Both the position numbers and the translations under genes were made by a program. From a virus, in the IMG/VR virus record IMGVR_UViG_3300044825_001317, positions 1-37,452 of that record: a stretch of DNA of 37,452 bases. One strand, 5' to 3'. The notes beneath the pieces are model-generated. The model was given only the letters and a program-made list of their open reading frames with translations, made no database searches and was not told the DNA's origin. Positions 1,956-32,400 of this stretch are shown here, piece by piece; position 1 is the stretch's first letter; every line of letters begins with the position of its first letter.

Positions 1956-3680
1956 CTACACTGGATACAGCGGAGCCATCCCGGTGTTGCCTTCAAAGCG
2001 CATACTGTTCTCGACCTCAGCGGACCACTCTTCCGTTCGGAGGATCATGCCTGTATCTCGGAGGTGGCGTAAAGCCATTGACACCGTATCGACCAAATCG
2101 TCGTGCTTCCCCTTGGGAAACTGGCCGACTTGGTTGATAACCATGTCTGACCAGCTCTTAAACGGGGCAAAAACCAGCCCTTCGGCAAACAAATGCTGGA
2201 TGCTATAGAGCCTGGCCAGCTTGTCCTGCGATTTTGGGTCAAAAAGGGTCAATCCGAAGCGCGATCCGCCGAAAAGACGGCGTAATTCCTGCGCAACCGA
2301 GTGTCCGGCGGCTTTATTTTCAATTAAAAGATTGTCAACCTTGTACCTTTGGCACGTTTCGGCGACTTGGGTGACCAAATCGTGCAATTCATACCGCCCC
2401 TGCCATGCGTACATGAGCATTACGCGGGGTTGGGTCTCGGTATAAGCTCTTGATACCTCTACACGGCCCTGTCCATGGCGCGCACCGGCGTGCCCAGCGG
2501 CCTGAACGGTCACATCTGAGCTAAAAACGCCCCAAACGGTTAGCGCGGACGGGTCATTTTCCGTTTTTGTCGTGTAGGCGGTGTCCAAGGACGCAATAAT
2601 CATGTCCATATTCGGGTAAATGCTGCTTTCCCAAGGCTGCCACCACTCTCTTTTAATGATTCCGCCGCCTTTTGGCTCAGGGCGCTGCTGCAATTGCCCG
2701 GCAGAGGTCCACGGACCCATCTGTTTTTCCAGAATACCGACTTCGCGCTCGCCAAAACGCTCTGGCCAGAGCAACGCACCCTCTCTGCGCTCCAGTTCCA
2801 TCTGCGCTTCGGGGCTGACAGCCAGCCTTTCGCCGTCATTGGTCACTTCGACCAGCGGATTACCGTCGTCATCCAGTCCCCTAGGGTCGTCCCAGCCCAG
2901 AACCGTATGGGAATGACGCTGCCATTCGTAGCGCATGGGCAGGCAGAGGTGGGTCCACGACCCGGAATCCTTGGAAAGGATGTGCCCGGTCAGGTCTTCT
3001 TCGCTCAGTCTCTGCTGAATGACAATGAACGCGCCACTCTTGGGGTCATTAAGACGGGTGGAGAGGGCGTTGTCCCACCATTCTATAGTGGCTTGGATGG
3101 TCGCCTCTGAGAACGCCTCCTGAGCGGCATTTGGATCGTCCACGATAATGATGTTGCCGCCCTCGCCAGTAAGGGCCGAGCCTACCGACGTGCTCAGACG
3201 GGAGCCGTTATGATCGTTGTCAAAGCGCGTTTTGGTGTTCTGATCGCCCGTAAGCTTGAAACGGTCGCCCCAACGCTTCTGATACCAAGGACTTTCAATC
3301 AGGCGACGGCACTTGACGCTATCCCTGAGCGAAAGCTGCTGGGCGTAGGAGGCCGTTAAGAACTGGACACCCGGCCCGGAGGTCGGCGTCTTCCATGGCT
3401 GAGCCCACGTCCATGCCGGAAAAGCCACCGACACCAAGCTGGACTTGGCGCAGCGGGGCGGAATGTTGACAATCAGGCGCCTGATCTCGCCGTCAGCCAC
3501 CGCCTGCAAGTGCTCTGCGACGGCTTCAATCGGCCAGCCATGAACAAACGGGGACGAGTCTATGTGCTGCCACCCACCTTGCAGGAAGGTGTAGAGACTG
3601 TCTTCGCAATCTACACGGTCCAGCTCCAAGAGCTGTTCATCAATGTTAATGTTCTGTCCGTCTAGTTGCAGAATTGCCAC
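1956..3680 (-). CDS. Terminase large subunit (packaging ATPase/nuclease)
   Basis: This is a 574-residue large terminase, the motor that pumps DNA through the portal and cuts the concatemer. The N-terminal ATPase carries a Walker A-like segment PPRCAKS at residues 74-80 and a Walker B segment IIIVDDP at 177-183. The C-terminal RNase H-like nuclease shows acidic positions in SLDTAYT (D366), LLIENKA (E454) and KHDDLVD (D527/D528). Length and domain order match typical TerL proteins. The Walker A is the degenerate kind seen in many terminases, with Cys-Ala where Gly-x-Gly might be expected. The matching small subunit lies 7.3 kb upstream at 10939-11610, an unusually long separation. Confidence 0.95.
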   Translation of the reverse strand: MAILQLDGQNINIDEQLLELDRVDCEDSLYTFLQGGWQHIDSSPFVHGWPIEAVAEHLQAVADGEIRRLIVNIPPRCAKSSLVSVAFPAWTWAQPWKTPTSGPGVQFLTASYAQQLSLRDSVKCRRLIESPWYQKRWGDRFKLTGDQNTKTRFDNDHNGSRLSTSVGSALTGEGGNIIIVDDPNAAQEAFSEATIQATIEWWDNALSTRLNDPKSGAFIVIQQRLSEEDLTGHILSKDSGSWTHLCLPMRYEWQRHSHTVLGWDDPRGLDDDGNPLVEVTNDGERLAVSPEAQMELERREGALLWPERFGEREVGILEKQMGPWTSAGQLQQRPEPKGGGIIKREWWQPWESSIYPNMDMIIASLDTAYTTKTENDPSALTVWGVFSSDVTVQAAGHAGARHGQGRVEVSRAYTETQPRVMLMYAWQGRYELHDLVTQVAETCQRYKVDNLLIENKAAGHSVAQELRRLFGGSRFGLTLFDPKSQDKLARLYSIQHLFAEGLVFAPFKSWSDMVINQVGQFPKGKHDDLVDTVSMALRHLRDTGMILRTEEWSAEVENSMRFEGNTGMAPLYPV

Positions 3681-3970: not shown

Positions 3971-4180
3971 TTAGTTTTTGTCTTTCTTGAAGATGCTGTA
4001 GTACGGGATCTCTACCGCGCACTCTTTTGTGCTGAACAGAGACTTGCACGATACGCACTTGCGTTGCCTATAGCGCCCTCCCTCATGCGCTCTACTGTCA
4101 TTCACTCTGCTTCTTCTTGACCCGCACGCGGGACAGGCGATGTCTAACTCATCCGGCTTTGGGAAGTTAACCTTTGTCAT
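3971..4180 (-). CDS. NrdR-like zinc-ribbon protein without an ATP-cone
   Basis: The 69-residue product contains CPACGSRRSRVNDSRAHEGG followed by a basic stretch and CVSCKSLFSTKE. This is the pattern of the N-terminal zinc ribbon of NrdR, the repressor of ribonucleotide reductase genes (CPxC, V-x-DSR, a basic stretch, CxxC, then an F-T-T/S-x-E end). The ATP-cone that follows in NrdR is absent, because the protein stops soon after. Phage Ogr/Delta zinc fingers are a related alternative. The start at 4180 is preferred over an upstream start because it overlaps the end of the 4167-4367 gene by 14 bases, the usual spacing here. Zinc and DNA binding are inferred from the cysteines. Confidence 0.65.
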   Translation of the reverse strand: MTKVNFPKPDELDIACPACGSRRSRVNDSRAHEGGRYRQRKCVSCKSLFSTKECAVEIPYYSIFKKDKN

Positions 4181-4367: not shown

Positions 4368-4543
4368 TTGTCTTCTCTCTTGGCTGCGGCGATGCGGGCG
4401 TTCTCTTTGGTCTCTCTTTTCTGGGTTTTCTTTATCCGCTCCATGACGCGATAGGCTTCGTCGGCGGTTAGGTACCCATGTATGTACATGAAGCGGCAGT
4501 ATGTGCGGGCTTCTTCTGCCTTAGCTAAGGGGGAGCTATTCAT
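4364..4543 (-). CDS. 59-residue hypothetical protein
   Basis: The reverse strand from the ATG at 4543 reads MNSSPLAKAEEARTYCRF and continues to a TGA at 4364, 59 residues in all. It is helical and strongly charged, with a basic C-terminal half rich in Lys, Arg and Ala. Its start overlaps the stop of the cassette gene at 4540-4761 as ATGA, and its stop overlaps the start of the next gene the same way. It therefore fills a gap in a continuous coupled operon and is very probably translated. Function is unknown. Confidence 0.6.
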   Translation of the reverse strand: MNSSPLAKAEEARTYCRFMYIHGYLTADEAYRVMERIKKTQKRETKENARIAAAKREDK

Positions 4544-4761
4544 GACTTTTTCTCCTCGCCAAGGGCAGTGCGGGCAATGTTCGCAGGGACATCGTACCAG
4601 TGCAGTGTTGTAATTTTGCCCAGAGCTTGCCGCAGTAAGGCAATCTCTTGGTGAGCATCATACAGGACATCCGAAAGATCGTCGGTCTTCAGTGTCCTCA
4701 CGGGTCCGATACCGCATTCGCCTATCATGTTCTCTAGCCGCCGAAGAATGTCCTTTTCCAT
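4540..4761 (-). CDS. Cassette-array protein, coiled coil with ALGEEKK tail
   Basis: The product has about 73 residues. Its N-terminal part contains IGPVRTLKTDD and LYDAHQEIALLRQAL, and it ends in ARTALGEEKKS. The N-terminal two thirds match the gene at 5505-5771 closely, showing recent duplication. The C-terminal tail is shared by most genes up to 8043. The ATG at 4761 overlaps the TGA of the upstream gene by one base, which makes it more likely than the GTG one codon earlier. A heptad-like pattern in the middle suggests a short coiled coil. No enzymatic motif is visible. Confidence 0.65.
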   Translation of the reverse strand: MEKDILRRLENMIGECGIGPVRTLKTDDLSDVLYDAHQEIALLRQALGKITTLHWYDVPANIARTALGEEKKS

Positions 4762-5048
4762 CACCCTCCCTCCTGTTCAGACCGGGCATAATCTTCGACA
4801 CATTGCGGGCATTCCATCCACATAGGCTTACGGTGGGCGCATGTGTCGTGCTTGGATGGGGCTCCGTCTTTGCGCCAACGCTCCCCCATGGGTCGTGGGA
4901 CATCCCCGTTGGCAATCCGCTCTAGGGCTTTCTGAAGATGCTCTACCTTGGCGCGGAGGCGGTCAATCTCATCGGCTGCTTCGGCACGCTGATCGCAGCA
5001 GTCGTAGGCGTCATATTTCCGAAGCCGCGCCAGAAGATCATCGCTCAT
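4761..5048 (-). CDS. Cassette-array protein with coiled coil and C-terminal Cys/His motif
   Basis: A 95-residue protein. It starts with MSDDLLARLRKYDAYDCC, continues into EAADEIDRLRAKVEHLQKAL and LERIANGD, and ends in a region with HDTCAH and ECPQC instead of the ALGEEKK tail. The N-terminal half is the same family as 5260-5505 and 6890-7132. The C-terminal cysteines and histidines could hold a metal. The start at 5048 was chosen because its ATG overlaps the preceding stop as ATGA. No enzymatic function is suggested. Confidence 0.65.
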   Translation of the reverse strand: MSDDLLARLRKYDAYDCCDQRAEAADEIDRLRAKVEHLQKALERIANGDVPRPMGERWRKDGAPSKHDTCAHRKPMWMECPQCVEDYARSEQEGG

Positions 5049-5263
5049 GTTCTCTCCTCCCGCGATGCTTTCAGCGTCAGGCGACCGAAGCTGGGATTGG
5101 ACTCGGCCCGGATGTCTGGATTGCGCCATGACCAGCACTCCCCGTTGGTATGGAAGCACACCCACAGCAGGTGATGCTCAACTCCGTAGTCTATTAGGAA
5201 GTGCGCGAGCGCCTTCCCCTGCGGCGTTTCAACCGGGAGCGGAGGGTTTAGCTGAAGGATCAC
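5045..5263 (-). CDS. Conserved phage protein of unknown function (ALAHFLIDYG type)
   Basis: This 72-residue protein contains GKALAHFLIDYGVEHHLLW and a tryptophan-rich CWSWRNPDIR segment, a combination I recognise as recurring in small hypothetical proteins of proteobacterial phages. It is not a coiled coil and breaks the otherwise repetitive cassette series. Its ATG lies just upstream of the end of the 5260-5505 gene and its stop overlaps the next start. It is probably a small folded domain with mixed alpha and beta structure. Its function is unknown. Confidence 0.65.
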   Translation of the reverse strand: MILQLNPPLPVETPQGKALAHFLIDYGVEHHLLWVCFHTNGECWSWRNPDIRAESNPSFGRLTLKASREERT

Positions 5264-5505
5264 TTCCTCTCCTCTCCAAGCGCGGCGCGGGCTTTGTTGC
5301 GTATTATCGCCCCTACATAGCTGGTCTTATTGCTCGTCATTTCAGCGGTCCATTTTTCAATCTTCGTGAGCGCTTCCCGCAGCCTTGCTTCTCTTGCGCG
5401 CAGGCGTTCAATTTCGTCGGCGGCTTCGTCTGGCAAGCCTGATATGTGATCTTCGTCATCGCGCAGAACAGAATCTCGCAATCGCGCCACAATGTCGTCG
5501 CTCAT
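5260..5505 (-). CDS. Cassette-array protein, coiled coil with ALGEERK tail
   Basis: It has 81 residues: MSDDIVARLRDSVLRDD at the N-terminus, a leucine/arginine heptad region DEAADEIERLRAREARLREAL in the middle, and ARAALGEERK at the end. The heptad block is nearly identical to blocks in 5505-5771 and 7132-7374. The ATG at 5505 is preferred because it overlaps the upstream TGA by one base and has the conserved GGAGAAGAAG in front. A longer reading from 5559 would duplicate the neighbour's coding DNA in another frame. Confidence 0.7.
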   Translation of the reverse strand: MSDDIVARLRDSVLRDDEDHISGLPDEAADEIERLRAREARLREALTKIEKWTAEMTSNKTSYVGAIIRNKARAALGEERK

Positions 5506-5771
5506 CACTTCTTCTCCTCGCCAAGGGCGGCACGGGCGCGGTCTCGACCTTCGATCCAAAAGGCATTTTCTGGATCAGCTTCATTGGTGTCGTCGTTGTC
5601 CACGTACCACTGCAACGCCTCCCGCAGCCGCGCTTCCCTTGCGAGCAGGCGTTCGATCTCTTCGTGCGCATCGTACAGGACGCGGGTCAGATCGTCTGTC
5701 TTGAGTGTCCTCATGGGCCCGATGGCGCAGTCGCCCAGCATGTTCACAACACGTTGAAGAATGTCGGTCAT
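5505..5771 (-). CDS. Cassette-array protein, apparent chimera of two neighbours
   Basis: This 88-residue protein joins an N-terminal part like the 4540-4761 gene (IGPMRTLKTDDL, VLYDAHEEIERL) to a C-terminal part like the 7132-7374 gene (REARLREALQWYVDNDDTNE and WIEGRDRARAALGEEKK). The match is visible at DNA level as well as in the protein. It therefore looks like a recombinant cassette. The ATG at 5771 overlaps the stop of the 5768-6319 gene as ATGA. Biochemically it is probably a short dimeric coiled coil. Confidence 0.7.
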   Translation of the reverse strand: MTDILQRVVNMLGDCAIGPMRTLKTDDLTRVLYDAHEEIERLLAREARLREALQWYVDNDDTNEADPENAFWIEGRDRARAALGEEKK

Positions 5772-6319
5772 GCCGCGTCCTCCTTCTTCAAACCAAGAAC
5801 CTCGTTCAACGCAGCAAACGGCGTCGAGAGAGCGGTGCCGGGCGATTTCGTGACGAGGTACGACTCATAATACGGACGGCCTTCTGGCCACATCTCCGCG
5901 AGACGCTTGAACGTGCCGGCGGAGATAATCGTATTTTCCAGATCCCTACGAGCCCTCGCCCGTTTCTCCCTGTACCCATCCCGCTTCAGAACAAAGTCGC
6001 GGACCCGGACGGCAAGCTCGCCACCCACCACGCCTAAAGACATGCACCCGTTTCTGAATTTCGCAGGAACCGGGACTGCCTTGTAGACGGACAGGCGCAC
6101 ATCCCACCCGTTGACGTTGAAACGCAGGCACTCGTCTTCCGGCAGCCACCCCTCTGTGGCAGTCTTCGTCCACTCAAGTTCGGCTTTCGTAAATACGTTT
6201 TCATAACACTCCATGGCAAGCGCCACTTCCGTATCGTCATTTCTCTTCTGCTCATCAGCGAAGAGGGCGCAGCAGGCTACTTGAGCGATAAGCTCTGCGC
6301 TCATTCTTGAGATCCTCAT
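5768..6319 (-). CDS. Hypothetical protein, possibly related to the phage Nmad5 family
   Basis: The largest gene of the array encodes 183 residues. The N-terminal half is helical (AELIAQVACCALFADEQK), the middle contains a beta-rich segment ending RDFVLKRDG, and the C-terminus carries AEMWPEGRPYYESYLV and FAALNEVLGLKKED. A WPEG motif followed by an LN-x-x-LGL ending resembles proteins annotated as Nmad5 (nucleotide-modification-associated) in phages. This is a family-level impression, not a demonstrated relationship. The ATG at 6319 has the conserved cassette RBS in front and is preferred to a GTG one codon earlier. Confidence 0.6.
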   Translation of the reverse strand: MRISRMSAELIAQVACCALFADEQKRNDDTEVALAMECYENVFTKAELEWTKTATEGWLPEDECLRFNVNGWDVRLSVYKAVPVPAKFRNGCMSLGVVGGELAVRVRDFVLKRDGYREKRARARRDLENTIISAGTFKRLAEMWPEGRPYYESYLVTKSPGTALSTPFAALNEVLGLKKEDAA

Positions 6320-6567
6320 CACTTCTTCTCCTCTCCGAGGGCGTCGCGGGCGATTGAAAGGTCACGCGATGAAGGCGCGCACCCATTCATCTGGCACCAC
6401 TTGTGATAGGCAGCCAGCCACTGGGCATCAGCCTTTGCATTGCGCAGCAAGCGTTCAATCTCGTCTTGCAGTTCTTCAATAAGATCGGCTGCGTCAAACA
6501 AAACGTCCGCTTCATCATTGTCGTCAGCCGTTATTTGACGAAGCCTTTCAGCAAGTGTTTCACTCAT
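6319..6567 (-). CDS. Cassette-array protein, coiled coil with ALGEEKK tail
   Basis: An 82-residue member. It starts MSETLAERLRQITADDND, continues into a helix AADLIEELQDEIERLLRNAK and ends IARDALGEEKK. The middle part (AQWLAAYHKWCQMNGCAPSS) is unique to this gene, so cassettes share ends and differ in the centre. The ATG at 6567 overlaps the TGA of the upstream gene by one base. A dimeric coiled coil is likely; nothing points to catalysis. Confidence 0.65.
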   Translation of the reverse strand: MSETLAERLRQITADDNDEADVLFDAADLIEELQDEIERLLRNAKADAQWLAAYHKWCQMNGCAPSSRDLSIARDALGEEKK

Positions 6568-6890
6568 CACTTCTTCTCCTGTCTGGCTAAAGCGGAACGG
6601 ATTGAAGTTTCGTCTGGACCGCCCATCGCAGTCTCGTACGCAGCGAGAGCGTCGTACAACTCTTGCTCGCTTTTGGTCATCATTGGATATGCTTCTGGTG
6701 CGAACATCAACATGTTCACGCGAAAAGGCTTTTTCGGAACATCAAACATGTGCGACTGCCACTGATAGGCCAAGTGCCAGTAAGCCTCGTAAACAACCTT
6801 ACGCGCTGCCTTCAGTTCGCGTTCCTTGATGTCGAGAACAAGTTTCAGCCTATCATTCTCATCCACCAGCTCTTCGTAGAAGTCCGTCAT
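6567..6890 (-). CDS. Cassette-array protein, divergent tail
   Basis: The 107-residue product starts with a charged helix (YEELVDENDRLKLVLDIKER) and has a central hydrophobic and aromatic part (AYWHLAYQWQSHMF, then FRVNMLMFAPEAYP). It ends IRSALARQEKK, a decayed form of the shared tail. It is the cassette least like its neighbours in sequence but keeps the same start and stop arrangement. The ATG at 6890 overlaps the previous stop by one base. Function is unknown. Confidence 0.6.
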   Translation of the reverse strand: MTDFYEELVDENDRLKLVLDIKERELKAARKVVYEAYWHLAYQWQSHMFDVPKKPFRVNMLMFAPEAYPMMTKSEQELYDALAAYETAMGGPDETSIRSALARQEKK

Positions 6891-7132
6891 CACTTTTTCT
6901 CCTCTCCAAGTGCGGCGCGAGCAGCAGCTCGATCTGTCTCGTCTCCGTCATCCAACAGATCGTATATGTTGCGACGCAGCCGCTCATTCTCAGCGCGCAG
7001 GCGTTCGATCTCGTCGGCGGAGTCATCGTGGCACCGCATCAAGTATTTAATGCGCTCGCGATATTCCTTTTCACTGAGCTTTTGGTCATAGCCATTTTCA
7101 AATGGATCTGCGCCACACTGTTCGTCGCTCAT
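6890..7132 (-). CDS. Cassette-array protein, coiled coil with ALGEEKK tail
   Basis: It comprises 80 residues. The N-terminal part is MSDEQCGADPFENGYDQ, the central region contains DDSADEIERLRAENERLRR with clear leucine heptads, and it ends in AARAALGEEKK. The start at 7132 is favoured by the TGATG overlap and the conserved purine-rich RBS. It belongs to the same subgroup as 4761-5048 and 5260-5505 (A/S-DEIERLRA core). Confidence 0.7.
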   Translation of the reverse strand: MSDEQCGADPFENGYDQKLSEKEYRERIKYLMRCHDDSADEIERLRAENERLRRNIYDLLDDGDETDRAAARAALGEEKK

Positions 7133-7374
7133 CACTTCTTCTCCTCTCCGAGGGCGGCGCGGGCGCGGTCGCGGCCTTCTAACCAAAAACGATTTATCTC
7201 ATTCCAAGTTTCACCATGCTCGTCCGGCTCATCGCCTTCGTTTGTATCGTCATTATCAACGTACCATTGCAGCGCCTCCCGCAGCTTCGCCTCTCTAGCG
7301 CGCAGGCGTTCGATCTCGTCTGACAAACTCTCTATCTTTTCGCTCATCTCCCAAAGGCGAGTTGCAGTTTCCAT
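7132..7374 (-). CDS. Cassette-array protein, coiled coil with ALGEEKK tail
   Basis: Eighty residues starting METATRLWEMSEKIESL, followed by SDEIERLRAREAKLREALQ, a linker YVDNDDTNEGDEPDEHGE and a tail FWLEGRDRARAALGEEKK. The C-terminal two thirds are shared with 5505-5771, with a seven-residue-scale insertion in the acidic linker. The start at 7374 has the duplicated RBS element in front. Upstream in-frame starts would run through the neighbouring zinc-ribbon gene and are not favoured. Confidence 0.7.
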   Translation of the reverse strand: METATRLWEMSEKIESLSDEIERLRAREAKLREALQWYVDNDDTNEGDEPDEHGETWNEINRFWLEGRDRARAALGEEKK

Positions 7375-7574
7375 CACTTCTTCTTCTCCTGTAGTGCTGT
7401 CGCGGGGATGAAAATACGCGGCCCTACAGAAACTGATCCACTGCATGTTTTGTCGTCGTTCTTTCCATCGTGGCGTCGAACGATGCCGCACCGTTTGCAG
7501 CACGTTAGATTGCGGTACATTGTCCACTCGTGGTGCAATGGACTGTCTTTCATCTTTATTTTTTCCTCGTTCAT
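7374..7574 (-). CDS. Small zinc-ribbon protein with EKKK tail
   Basis: A 66-residue protein (59 if translation begins at the ATG at 7553) with CCKRCG and a further cysteine in DDKTCSG, flanked by histidines in LHHEW and a basic RRHDGKND loop. This resembles small phage zinc-binding proteins with a CxxC-x(n)-C layout. It ends ATALQEKKK, a decayed version of the cassette tail, so it has joined the array. The start at 7574 overlaps the stop of the upstream 7571-7726 gene as ATGA. The inner ATG at 7553 has the better GAGGA-type RBS, so the start is unsettled. Confidence 0.55.
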   Translation of the reverse strand: MNEEKIKMKDSPLHHEWTMYRNLTCCKRCGIVRRHDGKNDDKTCSGSVSVGPRIFIPATALQEKKK

Positions 7575-7726
7575 TTTGGCACACACATTGATTTTTGAAG
7601 CGAAAACACACGGCTGTTTTTCTGGACAAACTCCAGCGCAGCTTCGCATCTTTGCTGCGATGAGAACTCTTGTGTTGTTATGCTTTGGCCGTTGTAAACA
7701 GATGATATGACAATCAGAACATACAT
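7571..7726 (-). CDS. 51-residue hypothetical protein with hydrophobic N-terminus
   Basis: The reverse strand from the ATG at 7726 (or 7729, one codon earlier) encodes a hydrophobic start MYVLIVISSVYNGQ, then TTQEFSSQQRCEAALEFVQ, and ends at CVPK before a TGA at 7571. Two cysteines and a short hydrophobic leader suggest export or membrane association. Similar short phage proteins with an EF-x-S...C-x-x-A pattern exist, to my recollection. It fills an otherwise empty gap, and both ends overlap the neighbouring genes, which supports translation. Confidence 0.55.
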   Translation of the reverse strand: MYVLIVISSVYNGQSITTQEFSSQQRCEAALEFVQKNSRVFSLQKSMCVPK

Positions 7727-8043
7727 CATTCCCTCTTCTCCTCTCCAAGGGCGGCGCGGGCGTAGTCATGCGCGTGCTGAAATAGCTCTCCGTTTGCGAT
7801 TTTCTCCAACGCTTCCCGCATTCGCCCGGCTTCCTGCCTAAGTACCACAATGTCAAGTTGCTGCTTGCTGATGTGCTTGCGCAGGTTCTCTGCTTCCAAG
7901 TCAGCCTCGCGGAGGTCGTCCTCCAGCCGATCCGTGTAGTAGCGCAGTTGCCGGATCAGCTTGGCGGCCTCGCGACGCATGGCAAACGCGCCGTCGTAGT
8001 TGGTGTCCTCCAGCCGCTCACAGATGTCTCTGTCGTCAGTCAT
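7726..8043 (-). CDS. Cassette-array protein, long coiled coil, first of the array
   Basis: A 105-residue protein. It starts MTDDRDICERLEDTNYDG and has a long helical region (YYTDRLEDDLREADLEAENL, QQLDIVVLRQEAGRMREAL). A LEKIANGE segment shared with 4761-5048 comes next, and the end is YARAALGEEKRE. It is the promoter-proximal member of the cassette set. The start at 8043 was chosen by the RBS position and because the upstream gene ends just inside it. An extended reading from 8220 would overlap that gene entirely and is rejected. Confidence 0.7.
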   Translation of the reverse strand: MTDDRDICERLEDTNYDGAFAMRREAAKLIRQLRYYTDRLEDDLREADLEAENLRKHISKQQLDIVVLRQEAGRMREALEKIANGELFQHAHDYARAALGEEKRE

Positions 8044-8329: not shown

Positions 8330-8674
8330 TTACCTGCCGGAGTTAATCTTGCAAACTGCGTTGTATTCGACGTTTCGCCCTCGGTCGGTTGTCATGACGG
8401 CGAATGATCTTCCGTTGGTTACGTCCATCGACAGGATGAAGTTAGCTGTGCTGCCGATATGGATGACGGTCAGGATACTTCCGTCAATCTTTGGGAATGC
8501 GACCTGTGGCTTTGCGGTTCCGTAAGCTATTCGGGCTTCTCCTTGGGTTACGAAGACTGCGATCTTTTCTCCGTTCTGGATGGTGCAGTCTCCAGAGATC
8601 CATGCCTGGGCATTAGCGGGTAGTGGGGTAAGTGCGGCTGCGATCAGAAGGCCGCGCCAGAGGTATGGGTTCAT
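8330..8674 (-). CDS. Exported small protein
   Basis: The 114-residue protein has a clear Sec signal peptide: basic start, hydrophobic LLIAAALTPLP and an ANAQA cleavage site near residue 23. The mature part is beta-rich with two cysteines (GDCTIQNG and AVCKINSGR), which could form a disulfide in the periplasm. Its role is unknown; superinfection exclusion or envelope modification would be typical for such phage proteins. Its start overlaps the stop of the 8671-9054 gene as ATGA. Confidence 0.65.
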   Translation of the reverse strand: MNPYLWRGLLIAAALTPLPANAQAWISGDCTIQNGEKIAVFVTQGEARIAYGTAKPQVAFPKIDGSILTVIHIGSTANFILSMDVTNGRSFAVMTTDRGRNVEYNAVCKINSGR

Positions 8675-9054
8675 TTGGGCAGTTCCGGCAGTGGCATCCA
8701 GTGAGTTGGGTTTTTGTTCAGCAGTTCATTACCTTTTTGGTCTTGTGCCCAGCCTTTGCCGGGGATGTTCCACGCCACATGGACCCACCTGTTCTTTTTC
8801 CCGGAGCACCATGTATGGCCTGCGATGACGACCATGGCTCCGGTCGGCGCTGAGCAAATGTTTAGCCACTGGCTGTTTGTCGGAGCAGGCACCCTGTGAC
8901 CATCAAGAGTCATCACCCTTGCCAGCGAAGCGCCTTTCTTTTTATTACCAAACAGCCTGACGCCTATTTGACCCCAAGACAGCCCTTCTTTTCGAAGGAA
9001 CTTGGCCTGTTCAATTTTTTCATCCGTGTAGACTGATCGTGACACATTGGTCAT
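8671..9054 (-). CDS. HTH-like N-terminus with DUF551-like C-terminus
   Basis: A 127-residue protein. The N-terminal 40 residues (DEKIEQAKFLRKEGLSWGQI) look like a recombinase- or transposase-type helix-turn-helix. The remainder has NICSAPTGAMVVIAGH, a WVHVAWN strand and ends THWMPLPELPK. That ending is the hallmark of the phage DUF551 family. The adjacent gene at 9051-9317 is a shorter DUF551 paralogue without the HTH, so this is a duplicated domain fused to a putative DNA-binding unit. Biochemical function is unknown. Confidence 0.65.
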   Translation of the reverse strand: MTNVSRSVYTDEKIEQAKFLRKEGLSWGQIGVRLFGNKKKGASLARVMTLDGHRVPAPTNSQWLNICSAPTGAMVVIAGHTWCSGKKNRWVHVAWNIPGKGWAQDQKGNELLNKNPTHWMPLPELPK

Positions 9055-9317
9055 TTGGGCGGCTCCGGCAGATGCATCCAGTGGGTTGGCTTAGCGTCCA
9101 AGATTTCGTTCCCGTCGGGGTCAAACGCCCAGCAGAAGAACGCCTTGTTGACTTGGGTCCATTCAACCATTTCGCCGTCAACCTCCAGAGAGGTTAATGT
9201 CAGCCAAGCCTCGCCAACGACAGGCGTCCCGTGAAAGTTAAGCCACGTCACCAGAACGGGCATACCGAAGGGCGCTGATCCAATGTCTCGCCATTCCTGA
9301 GTATGTGTACTTGTCAT
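9051..9317 (-). CDS. DUF551-like protein
   Basis: An 88-residue protein starting with WRDIGSAPFGMPVLVTWL and ending THWMHLPEPPK, matching the layout of phage DUF551 proteins (N-terminal W..I..AP..., C-terminal THWM-x-LPEPP). It is adjacent to and related to the larger gene at 8671-9054. DUF551 proteins are common near Ea22-like genes in phage accessory regions, and their function is not established. Its ATG at 9317 overlaps the end of the preceding gene as ATGA. Confidence 0.75.
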   Translation of the reverse strand: MTSTHTQEWRDIGSAPFGMPVLVTWLNFHGTPVVGEAWLTLTSLEVDGEMVEWTQVNKAFFCWAFDPDGNEILDAKPTHWMHLPEPPK

Positions 9318-10938: not shown

Positions 10939-11610
10939 CTAAGTATCGCCTACCGGCTTTGCGCCTATCGCACGGGCTTCCAAGAGCATTCCGCGCAGTC
11001 TGTCCCGGTCCTCTGGCGCTATGTCACGCGCAGATATGACAACGTTATTGGTTACATTGTTAATCGTTGTTGCGTCGCGGTGGGCGTCGCCTTCTGCAAT
11101 CCTGCTATTGTAAAGCCGTGGCGCGGCCTTTTCAGCGTACCATTTGAACGCGTCTACCAGAATGCGAACGGCTGGCGCGTTGTCCTCTGTCGCCGTTTTT
11201 GCAGCAGAAACAACATGATGGGCGGCGTGCTCGCCGAAGCCCATGCGTGCGCGTGCGTATAGCGCAGCAAAGTCGGGGCGTGTTTCAATCCAATAATACA
11301 CCACCATGCGCGTCGGCATGTCTGGCGAGCTGTCGCAAATATCAATCAGTGTCTCGCCCATGCAAAGGCGTTCGCAGATCTCATGGGCTATCTCGTCACT
11401 ATATGGGAACGTCACAGGCCTTCCCATTTTGGCCTGACGTGCGACGCCTTGCTTAGCGCTATCCTTTACGGTCGCGACAACATGCTTAAGGGCTGCGCTA
11501 TACTCGGCATGCTTCGGCCCCTTGCGCCTATTCGGATTGATCAGGCTGCGCTCGCTTTCCGGTATATCGGCCGCCGCGCCAGTCGAGCCGCGCGCTTTTT
11601 TTCCCGCCAT
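10939..11610 (-). CDS. Terminase small subunit, Sf6/P22-like
   Basis: This 223-residue protein has a variable basic N-terminus and then YSDEIAHEICERLCMGETL and DICDSSPDMPTRMVVYYW, an HTH typical of Sf6-like small terminases (ICERL-x-x-GE-T/S-L...). Next comes an oligomerisation-type helical region (YARARMGFGEHAAHHVVSAA) and a C-terminal tail. Small terminases recognise the packaging site and load the large subunit. The start at 11610 is chosen by family length, although its Shine-Dalgarno sequence is weak and a TTG at 11643 is possible. The large subunit is 7.3 kb away at 1956-3680. Confidence 0.72.
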   Translation of the reverse strand: MAGKKARGSTGAAADIPESERSLINPNRRKGPKHAEYSAALKHVVATVKDSAKQGVARQAKMGRPVTFPYSDEIAHEICERLCMGETLIDICDSSPDMPTRMVVYYWIETRPDFAALYARARMGFGEHAAHHVVSAAKTATEDNAPAVRILVDAFKWYAEKAAPRLYNSRIAEGDAHRDATTINNVTNNVVISARDIAPEDRDRLRGMLLEARAIGAKPVGDT

Positions 11611-12042: not shown

Positions 12043-12246
12043 TTATCCCTTATCGCTTAGCTTTAGTTTTGTGACGCATGAACGCGGGGCTTGCATAGAG
12101 TGAACCGGCCCATCAGTGAACCAAAGCCGGACAGTCGCGCCCCCGTTGTCCTCGACGATGCAGCGGCGCTTATCTAAATCGTGCAAGGGCTGCAACGTGC
12201 TAGGTTGATTCACGAACGCCCGATAAATTGCGCGCGCTTCGCTCAT
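12043..12246 (-). CDS. Hypothetical protein
   Basis: Sixty-seven residues, with RAIYRAFVNQPSTLQPLHDL near the N-terminus and a beta-rich part VRLWFTDGPVHSM. Its ATG overlaps the stop of the GP88-like gene as ATGA, so it is translated with that gene. No motif or family is recognised. Confidence 0.55.
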   Translation of the reverse strand: MSEARAIYRAFVNQPSTLQPLHDLDKRRCIVEDNGGATVRLWFTDGPVHSMQAPRSCVTKLKLSDKG

Positions 12247-12986
12247 GCTGCGCCCCCACCGATCACAAAACCGCTGCGGTCGCGCTTAGCCTTGCGACCC
12301 TTCGGCGATAGGCCAATGATTGCCCCCGCAGGCTGCAGGTGAATCAAGTCGTGAGTATCGCCATTCACGACAGCCGCGCCAAGGTAGTGCGCAGGCAAGC
12401 CGTCCTTAAATACCGCAGCGACCTTATGCCCCGCCTGCAAAGCGCGCTCGCATTCGGGCTCATTGGACTCCGTGCGGCTTAGCACAAGGCACAAATTCGG
12501 CGGCAAAGCGCGGTAAAGCCGCGAAGCTATTTTCGTGTAGTCTACGAATTGCAACGCGGGAAAAGCCGCATAGACCGAAGCGAATTTAGTTCCGCCGCGC
12601 TCGCAAGCGATACCTTCCCATGCGATATCAGTCGAGCCGTTCAACCGCACGCAAAGCTTAAGGCCAAGGCGTTCGGCTTGCTTTTCCGCATTTTCAATGG
12701 CGCGTACCACGTCGCGCATATATTCAGCGCGGCTTTTCATAAAGCGCTGCGCTTTTTGAATGCGACTGGCGCGAACGGAATTCAGATCTGACTCCTGCGC
12801 CACCATTGCCGCTTGGCCACTATACCATCCAAGGCAAAGCGCTTTGCAGGATTCCGTGGCCTTCGGACATAGATTCCCGACTCCCGCTAACGTAGCAGGC
12901 GCCATGTAGTGAATAGCGTTTAGCCATCCAAAGCCGCGTGCCTTTACCGCCTTAGCGCTATCCATAGAGAAGATTCTATTCTGCAT
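12243..12986 (-). CDS. GP88/DUF7227-like phage protein
   Basis: This 247-residue protein has NLCPKATESCKALCLGW near the N-terminus, a central LCVRLNGSTDIAWE, then FVDYTK and LVLSRTESNE segments, and a late GLSPKGRKAKRDRSGF ending. That combination matches a widespread phage family annotated as gene product 88 or DUF7227. Three closely spaced cysteines near residues 40-51 suggest a metal or disulfide site. A TIM-barrel-like alternation of strands and helices is plausible. The role is unknown. The start has an AGGAG Shine-Dalgarno sequence and a candidate promoter at 13073-13044. Confidence 0.75.
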   Translation of the reverse strand: MQNRIFSMDSAKAVKARGFGWLNAIHYMAPATLAGVGNLCPKATESCKALCLGWYSGQAAMVAQESDLNSVRASRIQKAQRFMKSRAEYMRDVVRAIENAEKQAERLGLKLCVRLNGSTDIAWEGIACERGGTKFASVYAAFPALQFVDYTKIASRLYRALPPNLCLVLSRTESNEPECERALQAGHKVAAVFKDGLPAHYLGAAVVNGDTHDLIHLQPAGAIIGLSPKGRKAKRDRSGFVIGGGAA

Positions 12987-20480: not shown

Positions 20481-21095
20481 ATGCGTATGTCTGACAACAT
20501 TTCCAATATCGCTACCGCCCTCGCCAAGGCGCAAGGTGAGATCGACGACGCAACCAAGGGCGGGTTCAACCCCGCCTTCAAGTCCAAGTATGCTGACTTG
20601 GCTGCCGTGCGTTCCGTCATCCGTGAGCCGCTTGCCGTGAATGACCTGAGCGTCGTTCAGTTTCCCCGCACGGTCCAAGGCGGCGTGGAGGTAGAGACCA
20701 TGCTGCTCCACAAGTCCGGCGAGTATCTGGCCGAGACCTTGTTCATGCCCGTCAATAAGTACGACGCGCATGGCATCGGCTCTGGGATCACCTATGGCCG
20801 CCGCTATGGCTTGATGGCGATGCTCGGCATTGCCACGGATGACGATGACGGCAACGCAGCCGCTCAGCCCGGCTCGGGCCAGCAGGTATCCGGTCCTCCC
20901 CCCAAGAAGGCAGCCAAGGCCGATGTTGAAGCAGCGGTCGCTGCTGGCGAGGCCCGCGCCAAGGAAGAGGGGTCTCCGGGTGCGTCTGCATGGTGGGCCG
21001 GTCTGTCCAACGACATTCGCGCTGCTATCTCGGATGAGGCCAAGGCCCGCATCAAGAGCATCGGTCGCGACAACGATGTGAAGGTGGAAGCATGA
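20481..21095 (+). CDS. erf: Erf-family single-strand annealing protein
   Basis: This 204-residue protein has the hallmarks of the phage ERF family: AKAQGEIDDATKGGFNPAFK, YADLAAVRSVIREPLAVNDL, and GSGITYGRRYGLMAMLGIAT followed by an acidic, low-complexity linker and a C-terminal WAGLSNDIRAAISDEAKARI helical domain. Erf proteins form rings on single-stranded DNA and anneal complementary strands. The start at 20481 has an AAGGAG Shine-Dalgarno sequence. It is followed at once by an exonuclease, as in many phage recombination modules. Confidence 0.9.
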   Translation: MRMSDNISNIATALAKAQGEIDDATKGGFNPAFKSKYADLAAVRSVIREPLAVNDLSVVQFPRTVQGGVEVETMLLHKSGEYLAETLFMPVNKYDAHGIGSGITYGRRYGLMAMLGIATDDDDGNAAAQPGSGQQVSGPPPKKAAKADVEAAVAAGEARAKEEGSPGASAWWAGLSNDIRAAISDEAKARIKSIGRDNDVKVEA

Positions 21096-21721
21096 ACGAC
21101 CTTCAGGGAAACCAAGAGTGGCGCGCAGCCCGCATGGGCAAGGTGACCGCCTCCCGCGTGGCCGATGTCGTCGCCACGACCAAGACCGGCTACGGCGCTG
21201 GTCGCGGCAATTACATGGCTGAGCTGATTGTGGAGCGCCTTACTGGCGCTCCCTCAGACAGCTACGTCAGTCCCGCCATGCTCTGGGGCACCAACACGGA
21301 GCCGCAGGCACGGGCCGCGTATGAAGCAGCCAAGGGCGAGTTCGTGGACCTGAGCGGGTTCGTGCCGCACCCAACCATCTCAGCGTCCGGGGCCAGCCCT
21401 GACGGCTTGGTGGGCGAGGACGGGCTTATAGAGATCAAGTGCCCGAACACGGCCACGCACATTGAAACACTTCTCAGTGGCAATATTCCCACCAAATATC
21501 TGCTTCAGATGCAGTGGCAAATGGCCTGCACAGGCCGGGCGTGGTGCGACTTCGTGAGCTTTGATCCACGTATGCCGGAAAACATGAAGATTTTCATTCG
21601 CCGTCTAAAGCGCGAGGATGTCATCATCGCGGATCTGGAAAAAAAGGTCGTCAAGTTTTTGGCCGAGCTTGACCAGAAGCTGGAAGACCTCATGGTTGTG
21701 GCTGCGCGGGATGCTCTTTGA
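21092..21721 (+). CDS. YqaJ/lambda-exonuclease-type nuclease
   Basis: A 209-residue nuclease of the PD-(D/E)XK superfamily, YqaJ/RedX type: WRAARMGKVTASRVADVV at the start, then SGASPDGLVGEDGLIEIKCP, where Asp104 and Glu114-x-Lys116 are the metal-binding residues, and LLQMQWQMACTGRAWCDFV. It degrades one strand of duplex DNA to make ends for Erf. It overlaps the Erf stop as ATGA, so both are translated together. The C-terminal helical part is typical. Confidence 0.92.
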   Translation: MNDLQGNQEWRAARMGKVTASRVADVVATTKTGYGAGRGNYMAELIVERLTGAPSDSYVSPAMLWGTNTEPQARAAYEAAKGEFVDLSGFVPHPTISASGASPDGLVGEDGLIEIKCPNTATHIETLLSGNIPTKYLLQMQWQMACTGRAWCDFVSFDPRMPENMKIFIRRLKREDVIIADLEKKVVKFLAELDQKLEDLMVVAARDAL

Positions 21722-27064: not shown

Positions 27065-29410
27065 TCAGCCCTCTAGGTTCTGTTTGGCGATCTCAAGCGC
27101 CTTCGCCACGGTCTCGTCTGATGATTTTAGCAGGGCTTCCGTCTTCCCGCTAATTGCCTTCTTGGCGCGGTCAGCAGCGGCAACCATGTGCTGCGCAGAC
27201 ATCACCCGGCCACCAGACTTTCTGGCGATCGGAATATTGATCGGGCGACCTGTCGATGAGGACGACTCAGGGGGCTCCAGAGCGCGTTCAACAGACGGCC
27301 CCGCCTGAACAGCCAAGCGAGCCAAATCCTGCGTCATGACAGCCTTGTACTTGTTCAAGACAGAGTTGACGTTCTTGTTTCTCTCCGCCATTCGCGAGAG
27401 CCTAGCGATCTGATCCGGGTCATTGCTGGCAAGGATTCTGTTGATCCTACCAACGATAGCCCGCTCCTCAGCATTAAGAGCAAGGCGACGCGCCGCGCCG
27501 ATACCAGCCATTGATGCGCCAGCAAGGCCACCAACGGTAGGGTTCAGCAACAGGCCGGACACCGCGCCATAGCCGACGCCTGGGGCAAAGGCAGATCCGA
27601 CAAGTCCAGAGCTTAGACCGGGCAGCCCAGCCGCCTTGTTGAAATCAATCGCCTTCTTCAGGTTGATGACATCTTCAGCCGTGGCGACAGCGTACAGCCT
27701 GTCAGCCTTTGCCCGACCGAAAAGGGCAGCCATCTTTTCGTATTCAGCCTGAAGATTGGGAACGACAGTCGAACCTGTAGCCCGCTTGGCGTTCTCCCGA
27801 AGCTGATAAAGGTAAGCCTCTTCAAACTGGCGCTTCTGGTCAGGGCCATACTTGGTATATGCCCGGCGCGCTTCCTGAAGATCGGTGAGGTTGTAGCGAC
27901 CACCGGCAAAGTTAATGCCCGAGTCAATCGCGTTCCTGCCTTTAAAGAACCCGCTGGCTTCGTCCAAGGCTTTCGCATAGCTCGGGACGGTCGTCTTTAG
28001 GTCATTCCGAAGATTGTCTCTGATGCTGGAAAGCTGGCGACCCAGAAGCCCGTCGTTGTTCTTGAAGGCGCGGTCAACCATATAGTCAAGGTTGGTCTTG
28101 ACCTCATGCCAGAACGTCAGGTTGTCCGGTGCCGCACCACGAAGTGTACGGGAAGCCGCACTGATCGCTTCTGCCGCGAGAGGATCGGCGCGCAGAGAAT
28201 CAGTAACCGCGGATTGAACATTCTGTGCTTCTTTGCTGGACCGGGCAGCCTTAAACAGAGCCGGGTTATCAACGTCGATGCCGGTCTGCATACTAGTGCG
28301 ACGCCCAGCAGTCTGAATGGGGCCGCCATAGATGTTGTTGAACGCAGCATCCAGACGGGCAGCACTTTCTGCTTGGCGGGTCTTCAGGAAATCATCAATC
28401 AAGTCAGCAGCGGCGCGACCCTCTGAACTGGCGAGGCCACGCTCTGCCGCCTTAACCCCCTGCTTGCCGAGAAGGTCATAGGCCAAAAGCTGCTCGCCTG
28501 GCGTGCCAGTAGCAGTCTGTGCTCTCTGACGGATCTCAGCCAGAGCGGTCTGGATCTCTGTATCAGACGGAGCCTTGCCTGCGGCGCGAGCCGAAGCAAT
28601 CTCTCTGGCAAACTGGTTTTCAGCCTCGGCAGTCGGGGCATAGATATTCCGGCCCGTCTGAACCATGGAAGGCGCATACCGACCGATTGCCAGTGCAGAC
28701 ACGACACGGGCGGCGGCCTCTGCCTCTGGACCGAGACCAAGAAGGCCAGATGCAGCTTGGCCCGCTGTTTCAGATCCCGCGCCAGTGATCGCGCCAACAG
28801 CAGTTTGGAAAGCCTTCTGCTTGCCCAGCAACCCAGGCCCAGCAAATTCCGTTATGGTCTTGGCGTACTTGCCCGACGTTGACGAGGGTTCGTACATGGG
28901 ACCAGTGATACCAGCGGCCTCGGCATACGGCTGAACGAACCGACCGATGTCGGTACCAGTCGGCAGCCGTGGCTGACGCTCCAGAATTTCACGACCGGCC
29001 TGATGTCGTTCCCTCATCTCCCTTAGACGAGTTTCCGCTTCCGGCGACCCGGATTCTCCACGCAGATAAGAAGATCCGCGATGGAAAAGTTCTTCGACCT
29101 TCTCTACAGCCTTTCCCATGCCTGTTCTCAGAAGGTCAGACACGGTTCCGGGCAAACCAACGATCCCAATCGGGATGTTCTGCGCGCCCGAAATAATGGC
29201 GCTGCGAACGTCCTGCCCCGGTGATACCGGAGGCTTTTCCGCATATCCCAAGTCAGCCGAAGTCAGGCCCTGCAAAGCACTGGTAGCGTCCTCGCGGGAC
29301 ATCCGCTGAGGACCGGGGGCTCTGCGCTCAGGTTCTCTTCGTGGCGCGGGCTCTTGGTATCCAAGATCCGCAGAAGTGAGACCTTCTAAGGGGTTCGGCC
29401 TGTCAACCAT
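27065..29410 (-). CDS. Large internal virion/ejection protein
   Basis: A 781-residue protein. The N-terminus has two copies of GLTSADLGY (about residues 10-18 and 48-56), followed by a proline/arginine linker, long helical stretches and a glycine/alanine-rich hydrophobic region (SGLVGSAFAPGVGYGAVSGL near residue 610). The C-terminus is basic with GGRVMSAQHMVAAADRAKK. Size, helicity and a possible membrane segment suit a protein ejected through the envelope, as with P22/T7 core proteins. The start at 29410 overlaps the stop of the 1373-residue gene by one base, so the two are linked. Confidence 0.65.
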   Translation of the reverse strand: MVDRPNPLEGLTSADLGYQEPAPRREPERRAPGPQRMSREDATSALQGLTSADLGYAEKPPVSPGQDVRSAIISGAQNIPIGIVGLPGTVSDLLRTGMGKAVEKVEELFHRGSSYLRGESGSPEAETRLREMRERHQAGREILERQPRLPTGTDIGRFVQPYAEAAGITGPMYEPSSTSGKYAKTITEFAGPGLLGKQKAFQTAVGAITGAGSETAGQAASGLLGLGPEAEAAARVVSALAIGRYAPSMVQTGRNIYAPTAEAENQFAREIASARAAGKAPSDTEIQTALAEIRQRAQTATGTPGEQLLAYDLLGKQGVKAAERGLASSEGRAAADLIDDFLKTRQAESAARLDAAFNNIYGGPIQTAGRRTSMQTGIDVDNPALFKAARSSKEAQNVQSAVTDSLRADPLAAEAISAASRTLRGAAPDNLTFWHEVKTNLDYMVDRAFKNNDGLLGRQLSSIRDNLRNDLKTTVPSYAKALDEASGFFKGRNAIDSGINFAGGRYNLTDLQEARRAYTKYGPDQKRQFEEAYLYQLRENAKRATGSTVVPNLQAEYEKMAALFGRAKADRLYAVATAEDVINLKKAIDFNKAAGLPGLSSGLVGSAFAPGVGYGAVSGLLLNPTVGGLAGASMAGIGAARRLALNAEERAIVGRINRILASNDPDQIARLSRMAERNKNVNSVLNKYKAVMTQDLARLAVQAGPSVERALEPPESSSSTGRPINIPIARKSGGRVMSAQHMVAAADRAKKAISGKTEALLKSSDETVAKALEIAKQNLEG

Positions 29411-32400
29411 CAGAGGGGCCTCAGATCTGTGAATACGCCGCGCTCTTTGTTCCACCGCCCGATGAAGCCATTAGGCGTAACCCGCTGGCCGTCTCTGGTC
29501 AGGTTTCTGGCCTCTGGCGTATCGTTCACATACAGCCAGCCATCCTTGCGCCTATCGGCTTCAGGCAAATCGCCCTTGACCGGAGTATTGGCTTCCGCGC
29601 GATCTGTGTAGGACCGCAGATTGTTGTTCTTCTGCCACTCACGGCGGAAGCGGGCAAACTCATCAGCCGTCGCATAGGGATTCGCAGACTTCCAATCACG
29701 GAAGGCGTCATAGAATGCTTGGTGATACTCGGTCAGCGCCTTACCCTGAGCGATCAGAGCCCTGTTGGAAGCAGGCTGCAAAGTCGGATCGGTGACCGAC
29801 TCCTGCATCCGCTGGATTTCGGACACAAGGATACGACCGCCAACTTCCTGCAATCTGCCGAACAGCTGGTCGCGAGCAAGCTTTACGAAGCGTTCGAAAT
29901 CAGTGACATCCCGTAGCTTTTCAGGGTCAACCTTGATACCGACCGCATCCGCGAGAGCCGTGGCGTAGGTCTTGAAGTTCGCAGCCTTGTCGGTGCGATA
30001 CTGCTCAAGAATTTCGCCCATCTTGTTCCAGCGCTGAAGGATTTCAGGGGCAGCAGACTGCATCTGCTCCATGTTGTCCTGAACAACAGCGAACCGCTCT
30101 GCGTCCTTCTGGGCGGCAATCTTCTGACCTTCAATCTGATTGGCAATACGCTGCCACTCAGGCGGGACAATAATGGAGCCGTCCTTCAGGAAAAGCTGTC
30201 GGCTGCTGATGATCTTGTTAATCTCCTCGCGAAGAGAAGCTTGCTTGATGTCAAGCTCCTGCTTCTCTTTCACGTCGGTTGCCACCTCAGACGCGCGCTT
30301 TGCCTCTTCAATCTGCCTTTGAAGATCAGGAACGTTGTGACTCGGTTCAACTTTGCTCCAGTCAATGGTGGACATTAAAGACTTCATCTGTGGAGACGCC
30401 AATGCCCTTTCAGTGGCATCAGTCTGCACAGACGGGCCAGCAGGCGCAGCCGGAGCACTAGGCGCAGCCGGACCGGCAGGAGCACCTGTAGGCTCACCTG
30501 TCGCGGCAGAAGGGGCAGGCGGCTGAGCACTAGGTGCACCCTGCGGGCGAGCCCCAACCTCCTGCCTAATCTCTCCAGACTGTTCAATGATAGAGCCGTC
30601 AGCCAGCTTTTTCTTGAACTCTTCCAAGCTCCGAATGGGCGGCTGACCCCTAACGTACCTGATCTTGTTGAAGTCCAGCAGACGCTGGATCATCGCCATG
30701 TCAGTGGCCTGCTGGATTTGTGCAGTCTCGGCTTCCACCTTACCGATGTCAGCTCGGCCCTTCTCAAGGCCAGTGTAGGCAGAGACGCCACCCATCAGAC
30801 CTTCACCGATGGCCTGCCCCAAGAACGGGCTCTTGGAAGCCAGCATGGATCCAAGGAAGCCAAGGGCGGGAACCCAGAACTTTTCGCTGGTGGGAACGCC
30901 AGACGGGAGATATTCCCGTGCAACGTCGCCAAGCGTTGCTTTGCCAGCAGGAACGCCAGCGTACTCGCCGGGACGGCCACGCGAAACAGCCTCGCCAAGG
31001 GGGAACTTACGCTCACCACCTGTCTCACGCGATCCTTCAGCCGGCAGGTCTCTGGCAGCAGCAGTATATCTCCCTTCTGGGTCGATAAGACCTGCTTCTG
31101 TCGCTCTGCGGCGCGCGTTTATTCCTTGGTTGTGAACACCAAGAGCATTCACCGCGGAGGCGATGTCAGACAAATTTCCAGTCTGCGCAGCCCTGACTAC
31201 AGAGCCCGGAACGCGCCCATAGTTATAAGCGACAGACGTAAGCGCAGCCCTAGCGTTCGGCGGCAAGCGCCCCCAATTTTCTTCGCCGATTGCTTGCTGA
31301 GCGCCAGACTGGAACTCTCCGACACGCCGAGCCAAGTCACGCTCGGCATCTTCGCGGGTGACTCTTACCCCACGAGTAACGGGGATTACCTGACCCTCTG
31401 GGCTGGTAATTGTATCGGAGCCATATCCGACGCGATATGCGTTCACATCGTAATATGGCGTTTCTCTGAAGCCTTCTTTACGTCGGATTAGCGCCAAAGC
31501 AGGGTCTTCCTGAGAAGACGAAACTTCCATAGCGCCCACAGCCGGGAGGTCAGCCTCTGCGCTGTAGTCGGCAATATCGCCACCAGCCTGATAACCCTGG
31601 CGCGGCACAAGTCCACCATAGGCGAACGGAACAGCGCCCTCCGTCGCCTTATCGTAGTCCAGATGCAGGATACCGAGGCCATCCTTGTGAACAGCGTCGC
31701 TGCGCGACTCCTGAGCCATCAGGCCCAACTGAGTAGCGCCGTCGCCAAGGTTGTACCGATAGATGGTCTGGCCATCATAGGTTTCGCCAACCGGCTTTAC
31801 GTTGTCCTTCATCCGCTCATCAGAAAACGGGAGCAGGGCAGCCAATGCACTGAGGCCGCTGGCAGCAGTTGACCCGAGGGAGAAGAGGGAAGATGCGCCC
31901 TTAGCGATGTCAGCAACCTCGCCCAGACCGCTCTTCGGCGGACCCGGAGGCTGACCCGGCTTTGGAAGCTCGCGGATCTCAGACTTCCCGGCTTTCACAA
32001 CGTCACCGAGAGGATCGCTGCTCAGTTCATACGGGTCGATCTCGCCGCCCTCGGCATAGCCGATAGCGCCGCCGTAAGCCTTGCCGACAAGAGCATCACG
32101 CATTTCAGTGAAGCCTTGGCGAAGCTCTTTACCCGTCTTGTACAGGTCAGCAATGTTTCTGCCCATTGATGCAGCTTCTTGGAAGCCGGACCGGGGCTGC
32201 TGAGGCGTCCCGCCCGCAGTAATCAGTCGGGGCACGGGCAGCTTGGCTTCAGGCACAATGCTGCTAAGGCCCGGAGCGCCAGCACCAGCGCCGGGTCCGC
32301 CGTACAGACCGGACTGACCGAAGGGGCCAAAAGCCTGACGCTGAGCCGCCAGAAGAGCCTGAATGTCGTTGGGGTCTACAGCGCCGCCGGGGGCATACCC

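Follow-up and report, generated by a model that had tools for sequence, protein, structure and literature searches.

A probable two-joint gene-shuffling array of short coiled-coil genes between the terminase genes of a virus record

Introduction

The 37,452-base IMG/VR virus record IMGVR_UViG_3300044825_001317, the whole of which is called the window here, contains an array of short overlapping genes on the minus strand, from position 8043 to 4540, between the small and large terminase genes (terS and terL). The initial annotation of this DNA had noticed that ARAALGEEKK, exact or slightly varied, forms the end of seven of the genes and that two more keep a decayed form of this tail, which was confirmed in the present analysis. 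The locus raises the question of how genes with different bodies came to share one ending, and which piece of DNA is exchanged. Our analysis indicates, with a probability of roughly 0.8, that the locus is a natural two-joint gene-shuffling (gene-assembly) array, one joint being the tail and the other lying inside the genes.

Results

The window was compared with relatives (viral contigs numbered with the prefix L) that are mostly contig fragments, and genes were called by a simple script, without a trained gene finder. The first set consisted of 102 tail genes from the window and the related contigs, and the second of 64 genes from contigs chosen by a GEKKD form of the tail, some contigs being common to both sets.

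A shared coiled-coil stretch, DEIERLRAExxxLREAL, was found to form a second joint inside the genes, so that each gene consists of an N-module (median about 46 residues, joint included), the LREAL joint, a C-module of about 25 residues and the ARAALGE tail. The N-terminal and central parts had been described as different; the N- and C-modules do vary, but the coiled-coil stretch between them is itself shared. When the 102 genes were split at the end of the LREAL motif and compared as 5151 pairs, strong similarity was observed for the N-module in 43 pairs, for the C-module in 33 and for both in 4. Among these, C similarity did not exceed the 99.9% shuffle level in 39 strong-N pairs, nor did N similarity exceed its own shuffle level in 28 strong-C pairs. 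The corresponding counts in the 64-gene set were 68 (N), 38 (C) and 5 (both), and 13, 21 and 2 at a score above 0.9. Multi-member N clusters were paired with at least two C types in 10 of 12 cases and multi-member C clusters with at least two N types in 14 of 16, while the Chao1 estimates from the 102 genes gave pools of about 330 N-modules and 240 C-modules. The front and back halves reassort almost freely.

Some of these exchanges are recent. The N-modules of L173 and L212 are 97% identical in nucleotides (nt) and their C-modules are unrelated; conversely, L048 and L234 share a 98% identical C-module beneath unrelated N-modules. In the recent swaps, the shared C segment starts 12–30 nt before the end of LREAL and stops 0–7 nt from the gene end. 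These data also bear on tandem duplication followed by fast divergence of the middles, with the tail held by ribosome-binding site (RBS) and protein constraint. The tandem layout and the greater likeness of tails within than between contigs would agree with duplication. However, N-modules that are 97% identical (synonymous divergence, dS, 0.04) lie beside unrelated C-modules, and vice versa, and phages with a helicase identity of only about 30% have nearly identical cassettes in common. As divergence in place cannot give a similar half beside an unrelated half, duplication was rejected, and we give it almost no credence.

The tail was examined as a DNA element. About 36 nt are common to the tails, running from the ARAAL codons through the Shine-Dalgarno (SD) sequence to the next start. 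A 35-nt consensus of tail plus next start has six matches at up to 3 mismatches, all of them in the array and on the minus strand, and 0 matches were obtained in 100 dinucleotide shuffles. The proposal that the EEKK codons double as the SD of the next gene is borne out, since AGGAG or GAGGAG sits within the Glu codons. The TGATG overlap of stop and start was found after g1, g4, g5, g6, g7 and g9 (genes are numbered from 8043 downwards and given below), but the start overlapping the end of g10 is a GTG (GTGATC), and after g13 the overlap is ATGA. Among the 102 tail genes, the overlap is 1 or 4 nt in 67 and longer in 27 (mostly 8 nt).

Where neither the N- nor the C-parts of two genes are related, their nucleotide identity is about 0.2–0.4 before the ARAAL codons, rises to 0.7–1.0 in the window (0.56–0.92 across all contigs) over the 36 nt from ARAAL, and drops back to 0.2–0.4 after the next start codon; in rounded terms, the step at ARAAL is from about 0.25 to about 0.9. 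Third-position agreement in the 82 genes with an exact ARAAL is 0.77 for genes of one contig and 0.56 for genes of different contigs (permutation p 0.0005), compared with 0.30 for the codons of the same residues elsewhere in those genes. Because the synonymous sites of ARAAL match within a phage far above codon bias, the tail is copied DNA, beyond what convergence on an RBS would give; such convergence alone, which the initial annotation had named as the finding that would overturn it, does not account for the tail. Selection for the RBS is nevertheless visible in the codons: GAG and GAA are used 97 and 35 times for Glu in the tails (296 and 299 in the gene bodies), and for Gly the codons GGA and GGG make up 73 of 83 in the tails as against 127 of 267 in the bodies.

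The tails fall into lineage dialects, namely GEEKK with TGATG (the window and its kin), GEKKDx with an 8-nt overlap (L236, L206, L025 and others), GEGK, and two GEKE forms. A pattern for the GEKKD dialect matched 72 contig stretches, many of which contain it two or three times. One C-module can carry different dialects in different phages.

The genes and joints to which the block edges refer are as follows (minus strand throughout).

7726..8043: g1, first tailed gene; tail ARAALGEEKRE
7571..7729: g2, cassette without the family tail; 98% amino acid identity to the L107 copy
7374..7574: g3, decayed tail (ATALQEKKK); 97% amino acid identity to the L107 copy
7132..7374: g4, tailed, ARAALGEEKK; C-module common to g9
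6890..7132: g5, tailed, ARAALGEEKK
6567..6890: g6, decayed tail SALARQEKK
6319..6567: g7, tailed, ARDALGEEKK; N-module recurs in L174 next to an unrelated C-module
5768..6322: g8, non-family cassette with an Nmad5 domain (Pfam E 1.4e-10; phrog_1965 E 3.8e-14)
5505..5771: g9, tailed, ARAALGEEKK
5260..5505: g10, tailed, ARAALGEERK
5045..5263: g11, non-family gene (MILQLNPP...); kept in L006, in L007 at 65%
4761..5048: g12, N-module, joint and Cys/His C-module; tail replaced or lost
4540..4761: g13, tailed, ARTALGEEKKS; N-module common to g9 and L005
7722..7761: tail/start joint of g1; block shared with L107/L124 starts exactly at 7761
7128..7164: tail/start joint of g4; start of the L090 block at 7165
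7270..7317: internal joint of g4 (coiled coil/LREAL), the 48-nt span used in the tests
6965..7012: internal joint of g5; site of an edge (end or start) of the blocks shared with L090 and L114
5613..5660: internal joint of g9; end of block shared with L005
5368..5415: internal joint of g10

Cassette exchange at the shared tail, as originally proposed, is evident from shared blocks and junction homology that start at ARAAL. Junction pairs comprised 16 with the same next gene after unrelated C-modules, 24 with the same C-module before different next genes, and 1 with both the same; in most of the 16, the point where nucleotide homology sets in is no more than 7 nt from the first ARAAL base. The block from 7761 to 7381 (99.2% to L107/L124, 381 nt) opens at the first ARAAL base of g1, upstream of which the sequence is unrelated. 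The block from 7165 to 6975 (97.4% to L090, 191 nt) extends from the g4 tail as far as the g5 internal joint, and that from 5538 to 5259 (87% to L086, 283 nt) is exactly the g9 tail plus the g10 cassette. Overall, of 39 block ends in the window, 22 are no more than 6 nt away from a joint, compared with 26% by random placement (p = 5e-5); after removal of four short blocks consisting mostly of joint, the count was 18 of 31 (binomial p 0.00016). Whole cassettes thus move at the tail, as had been claimed for each gene, but what is exchanged is often only half a gene, because a second recombination joint lies inside each gene.

Single genes of the array show the same two kinds of exchange. The N-module of g1 is a long coiled coil whose family is kept in 12 phage genes with nine different C-modules; the C-module of g1 itself is EKIANGELFQHAHDY. 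The N-terminal 25 residues of g4 are identical in L127, where they precede a different C part. The N- and C-modules of g5 match two separate places of L114, its C-module being there on a gene with an unrelated N-module, and g9 is a chimera of a g13-like N-module (78% nt identity over 110 nt) and a g4-like C-module and tail. The C-module family of g12 recurs in L048, L234, L236 and L241.

Genes without the tail also lie in the array, namely g2, g8, g11 and g12. As the loci were chosen by the tail, the frequency of modules without it is not measurable from them, and g12 is one instance. The Nmad5 domain of g8 is nucleotide modification associated and stands on a tail-less cassette within the array. 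A Cys/His pattern, KHDxCxH...CxxC, is conserved in the C-modules of L048, L234, L236, L241, L280 and g12, which suggests a putative metal-binding module that moves among phages and is joined there to four or more different N-modules. A scan of the array gave neither a convincing promoter nor a convincing terminator, and no Rfam family or transfer RNA was found inside it.

The locus is part of about 7 kb of small genes, in a tight minus-strand run from terS to terL, with these flanks.

10939..11610, minus strand: small terminase, Sf6 type; upstream flank of the locus
1956..3680, minus strand: large terminase; downstream flank of the locus
3971-4180, minus strand: NrdR-type zinc-ribbon gene; closes the variable region of the window

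Related phages carry different cassette sets, in line with the expected gain and loss; the contrary outcome, one set in one order, was not found. In L006, whose terL is 95% identical, the genes preceding g1, the g1 N-module, g11, g12 and the genes before terL have been kept. Its g1 C-module is different, two other tail genes replace g2–g10, and g13 and g14 are missing. L007 and L008 (terL 86 and 85% identical) have no tail genes. The same kind of locus occurs in another clade (L086, L090, L095, L107, L108, L111, L123, L127 and others), whose helicase, where present, is the one about 30% identical to that of the window. There it lies between a conserved upstream gene (MANLGKSF/MADLGKTF in most contigs) and the NrdR-type zinc-ribbon gene, and nearly every contig has its own cassette set; L107 carries g2 and g3 at 98 and 97% to the window. 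The zinc-ribbon gene thus bounds the variable region in this otherwise different clade as well (L086, L090, L107, L127 and others).

Annotated phages gave no matches to the array DNA, g1 or g9. Two environmental Manatee Spring genomes, which match one C-module family, were the only database genomes matching, and the terL of the window has only distant matches in genome collections.

Discussion

We propose that homologous recombination between phages at two short boundary elements would swap the module DNA. A tail-to-tail exchange would move a whole cassette, and an exchange between a tail and an internal joint, in either direction, would move half a gene. Since the joints keep the frame, the helix and the RBS, every product would be translated. 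The likely enzymes are the annealase and exonuclease of the phage itself.

20481..21095, plus strand: single-strand annealing protein of the ERF family (Pfam ERF E 4.1e-21); candidate for catalysing exchange at short homologies
21092..21721, plus strand: YqaJ-like recombination exonuclease (E 8.9e-29); partner of the annealase

Rad52-like phage annealases, including ErfD3, recombine short diverged homologies, and the minimal segment for Red-beta is 23–27 bp (PMC3945230). Exact runs between tails of the window reach 29 nt.

An unlikely explanation of the sharp block edges is ordinary mosaicism, that is, illegitimate exchange anywhere, from which only products keeping the frame and RBS survive, the joints not being targeted. 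Illegitimate exchange plus selection is the standard model where boundary sequences are not seen (PMC3029335, PMC3233612), and purifying selection on both modules would purge its other products. However, boundary sequences do exist here and their synonymous sites are conserved within a phage; the homology starts at the first ARAAL base, whereas frame and RBS need only the SD or the start codon; and one C-module bears different dialects in different phages.

Sharp edges at a defined element, together with cassette-like gain and loss, could also be produced by a site-specific recombinase or an integron-like system using the 36-nt element as its recombination site. This is very unlikely: a foldable attC-like site was looked for and the element folds no better than shuffles (z +1.1), its sequence varies between lineages, the internal coding joint is used too, and no recombinase was seen adjoining the array. 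An integron cassette array was set aside on these grounds. A diversity-generating retroelement was also set aside, the variants being unrelated modules and not copies of one variable repeat with adenine-specific substitutions against a template (a reverse transcriptase was not searched for).

Several points weigh against a two-joint array. LREAL defines the split point, so that internal breakpoints are placed only relative to it. Several block ends do not coincide with any joint (the g6 blocks with L099, L140 and L241), and selection for in-frame products may sharpen the apparent breakpoints. Many joint pairs have exact runs below 23 nt, chiefly at the internal joint (median 8 within contigs); therefore, annealing must tolerate mismatches, or the recent donors were more alike. 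Finally, ERF is not specific to arrays, being present in 7 of 17 array contigs and 5 of 7 non-array terL relatives, and these counts rule it out as a marker of array phages.

Concerning the proteins, the tail genes gave no family at the cut-off in Pfam, PHROG or NCBIfam. The suggested kinship with Ea22-like proteins found no support, no such match being obtained at Pfam E up to 1 or NCBIfam E up to 0.1. Against the PADLOC and anti-phage defence hidden Markov models (HMMs), the array proteins had only weak coiled-coil-type matches (best E 0.0023). A weak match of g7 to an Acb2/Tad1 hairpin (E 0.009) and matches to AbiEi and JetC were set aside as coiled-coil noise.

Structure models of g9 and L236_23, of moderate confidence (predicted local distance difference test, pLDDT, 76–77; predicted template modelling score, pTM, 0.51–0.54), consist of a helix, a coiled-coil helix, a variable loop and the ARAAL helix; a fold search with both gave no match at E <= 0.001. 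The heptad pattern IxxLxAENxxLxxAL presumably resembles that of parallel dimeric coiled coils. The ratio of nonsynonymous to synonymous divergence (dN/dS) is 0.04–0.39 in diverged module pairs. Both halves are under purifying selection and, given these ratios, make a selected protein. The array proteins are probably helical dimers that would show variable ends, and we would guess that they serve as dimeric adaptors directed at the host, that is, as accessory factors acting on host or defence proteins. The fast turnover of the array proteins suggests a role in host contact. It is rather doubtful that the arrays form a dedicated and widespread phage diversification system, in which a common pool of N- and C-modules would be reassorted via two coding boundary elements into combinatorial coiled-coil dimers against host or defence proteins, the shared coiled coil being both recombination site and dimer interface.

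Several known systems resemble the array in part. In lambdoid phages, homologous recombination takes place at short conserved boundary sequences at gene borders, according to the accounts of Clark et al. 2001 (HK620) and Susskind and Botstein 1978 cited in PMC3029335. The mosaic modules of the array likewise meet at short conserved DNA: such an element stands at the module borders, and phage-shared blocks begin and end at it. Unlike the lambdoid sequences, the array element is coding, also serves as RBS, and is present in many copies per locus with lineage dialects; it also has a paired second element inside the gene, so half genes move. In the mycobacteriophage Island3, the neighbouring genes 67 and 68 share 18 C-terminal residues (about 50 bp), which was read as a recombination site (PMC3029335). 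That is one event in one phage, whereas the array presents dozens of junctions in many phages, plus the internal joint.

The ninR region of lambda is, in the account of Kroger and Hobom 1982 cited in PMC8022706, a chain of interlinked small accessory genes with ATGA stop/start overlaps and lineage-variable content. The small genes of the array overlap in the same way (ATGA or TGATG). However, ninR lies between P and Q in the early right operon and the array between terS and terL, the genes are different, and the array proteins gave no match to nin families; neither a shared C-terminal peptide family nor reassortment of N and C parts is described for ninR in the parts of PMC8022706 consulted. 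A survey of domain mosaicism in phage proteins reported shared fragments of at least 50 residues between otherwise unrelated proteins, often recent, and expected more mosaicism in accessory proteins of unknown function (PMC10684548, Nat Commun 2023). Its 50-residue minimum makes the 25-residue modules of the array invisible to it.

That short boundary sequences direct mosaicism is therefore an old idea, and Island3 67/68 is close in kind. As far as the searchable literature shows, the paired coding joints, the exchange of half genes, the joint doubling as RBS, the dialects and the scale are new. It has long been asked whether phage mosaicism arises via boundary homology or through illegitimate exchange followed by selection, a question that is hard to test because boundary sequences are usually missing. 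Here, many phages offer natural joints of known sequence, dozens in all, and some swaps are so recent that identity is still 97–99%, which makes the dependence on length and identity directly measurable. The locus also exposes a large family of short phage proteins unseen by current HMM libraries and by surveys of fragments of at least 50 residues. In addition, the principle of a coding joint bearing the frame, the helix and the RBS together offers modular gene assembly a natural design.

Other Genes of the Window

Two DUF551-type neighbours (8671-9054 and 9051-9317, minus strand) overlap end to start and have a common C-terminal stretch (83 nt at 72%), their endings being PTHWMPLPELPK and PTHWMHLPEPPK. 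DUF551-like ends recur on small genes of related contigs, and the pair may represent a second shared-tail family of the same kind as the array. On the minus strand at 29410-33531, a protein of 1373 residues has virion structural and DNA-ejection matches, with an endolysin-type match in its middle (residues ~654-816). The gene at 12243-12986 (minus strand) matches strongly to phrog_1617 (E 4.6e-47), one of the phage families without an assigned function.

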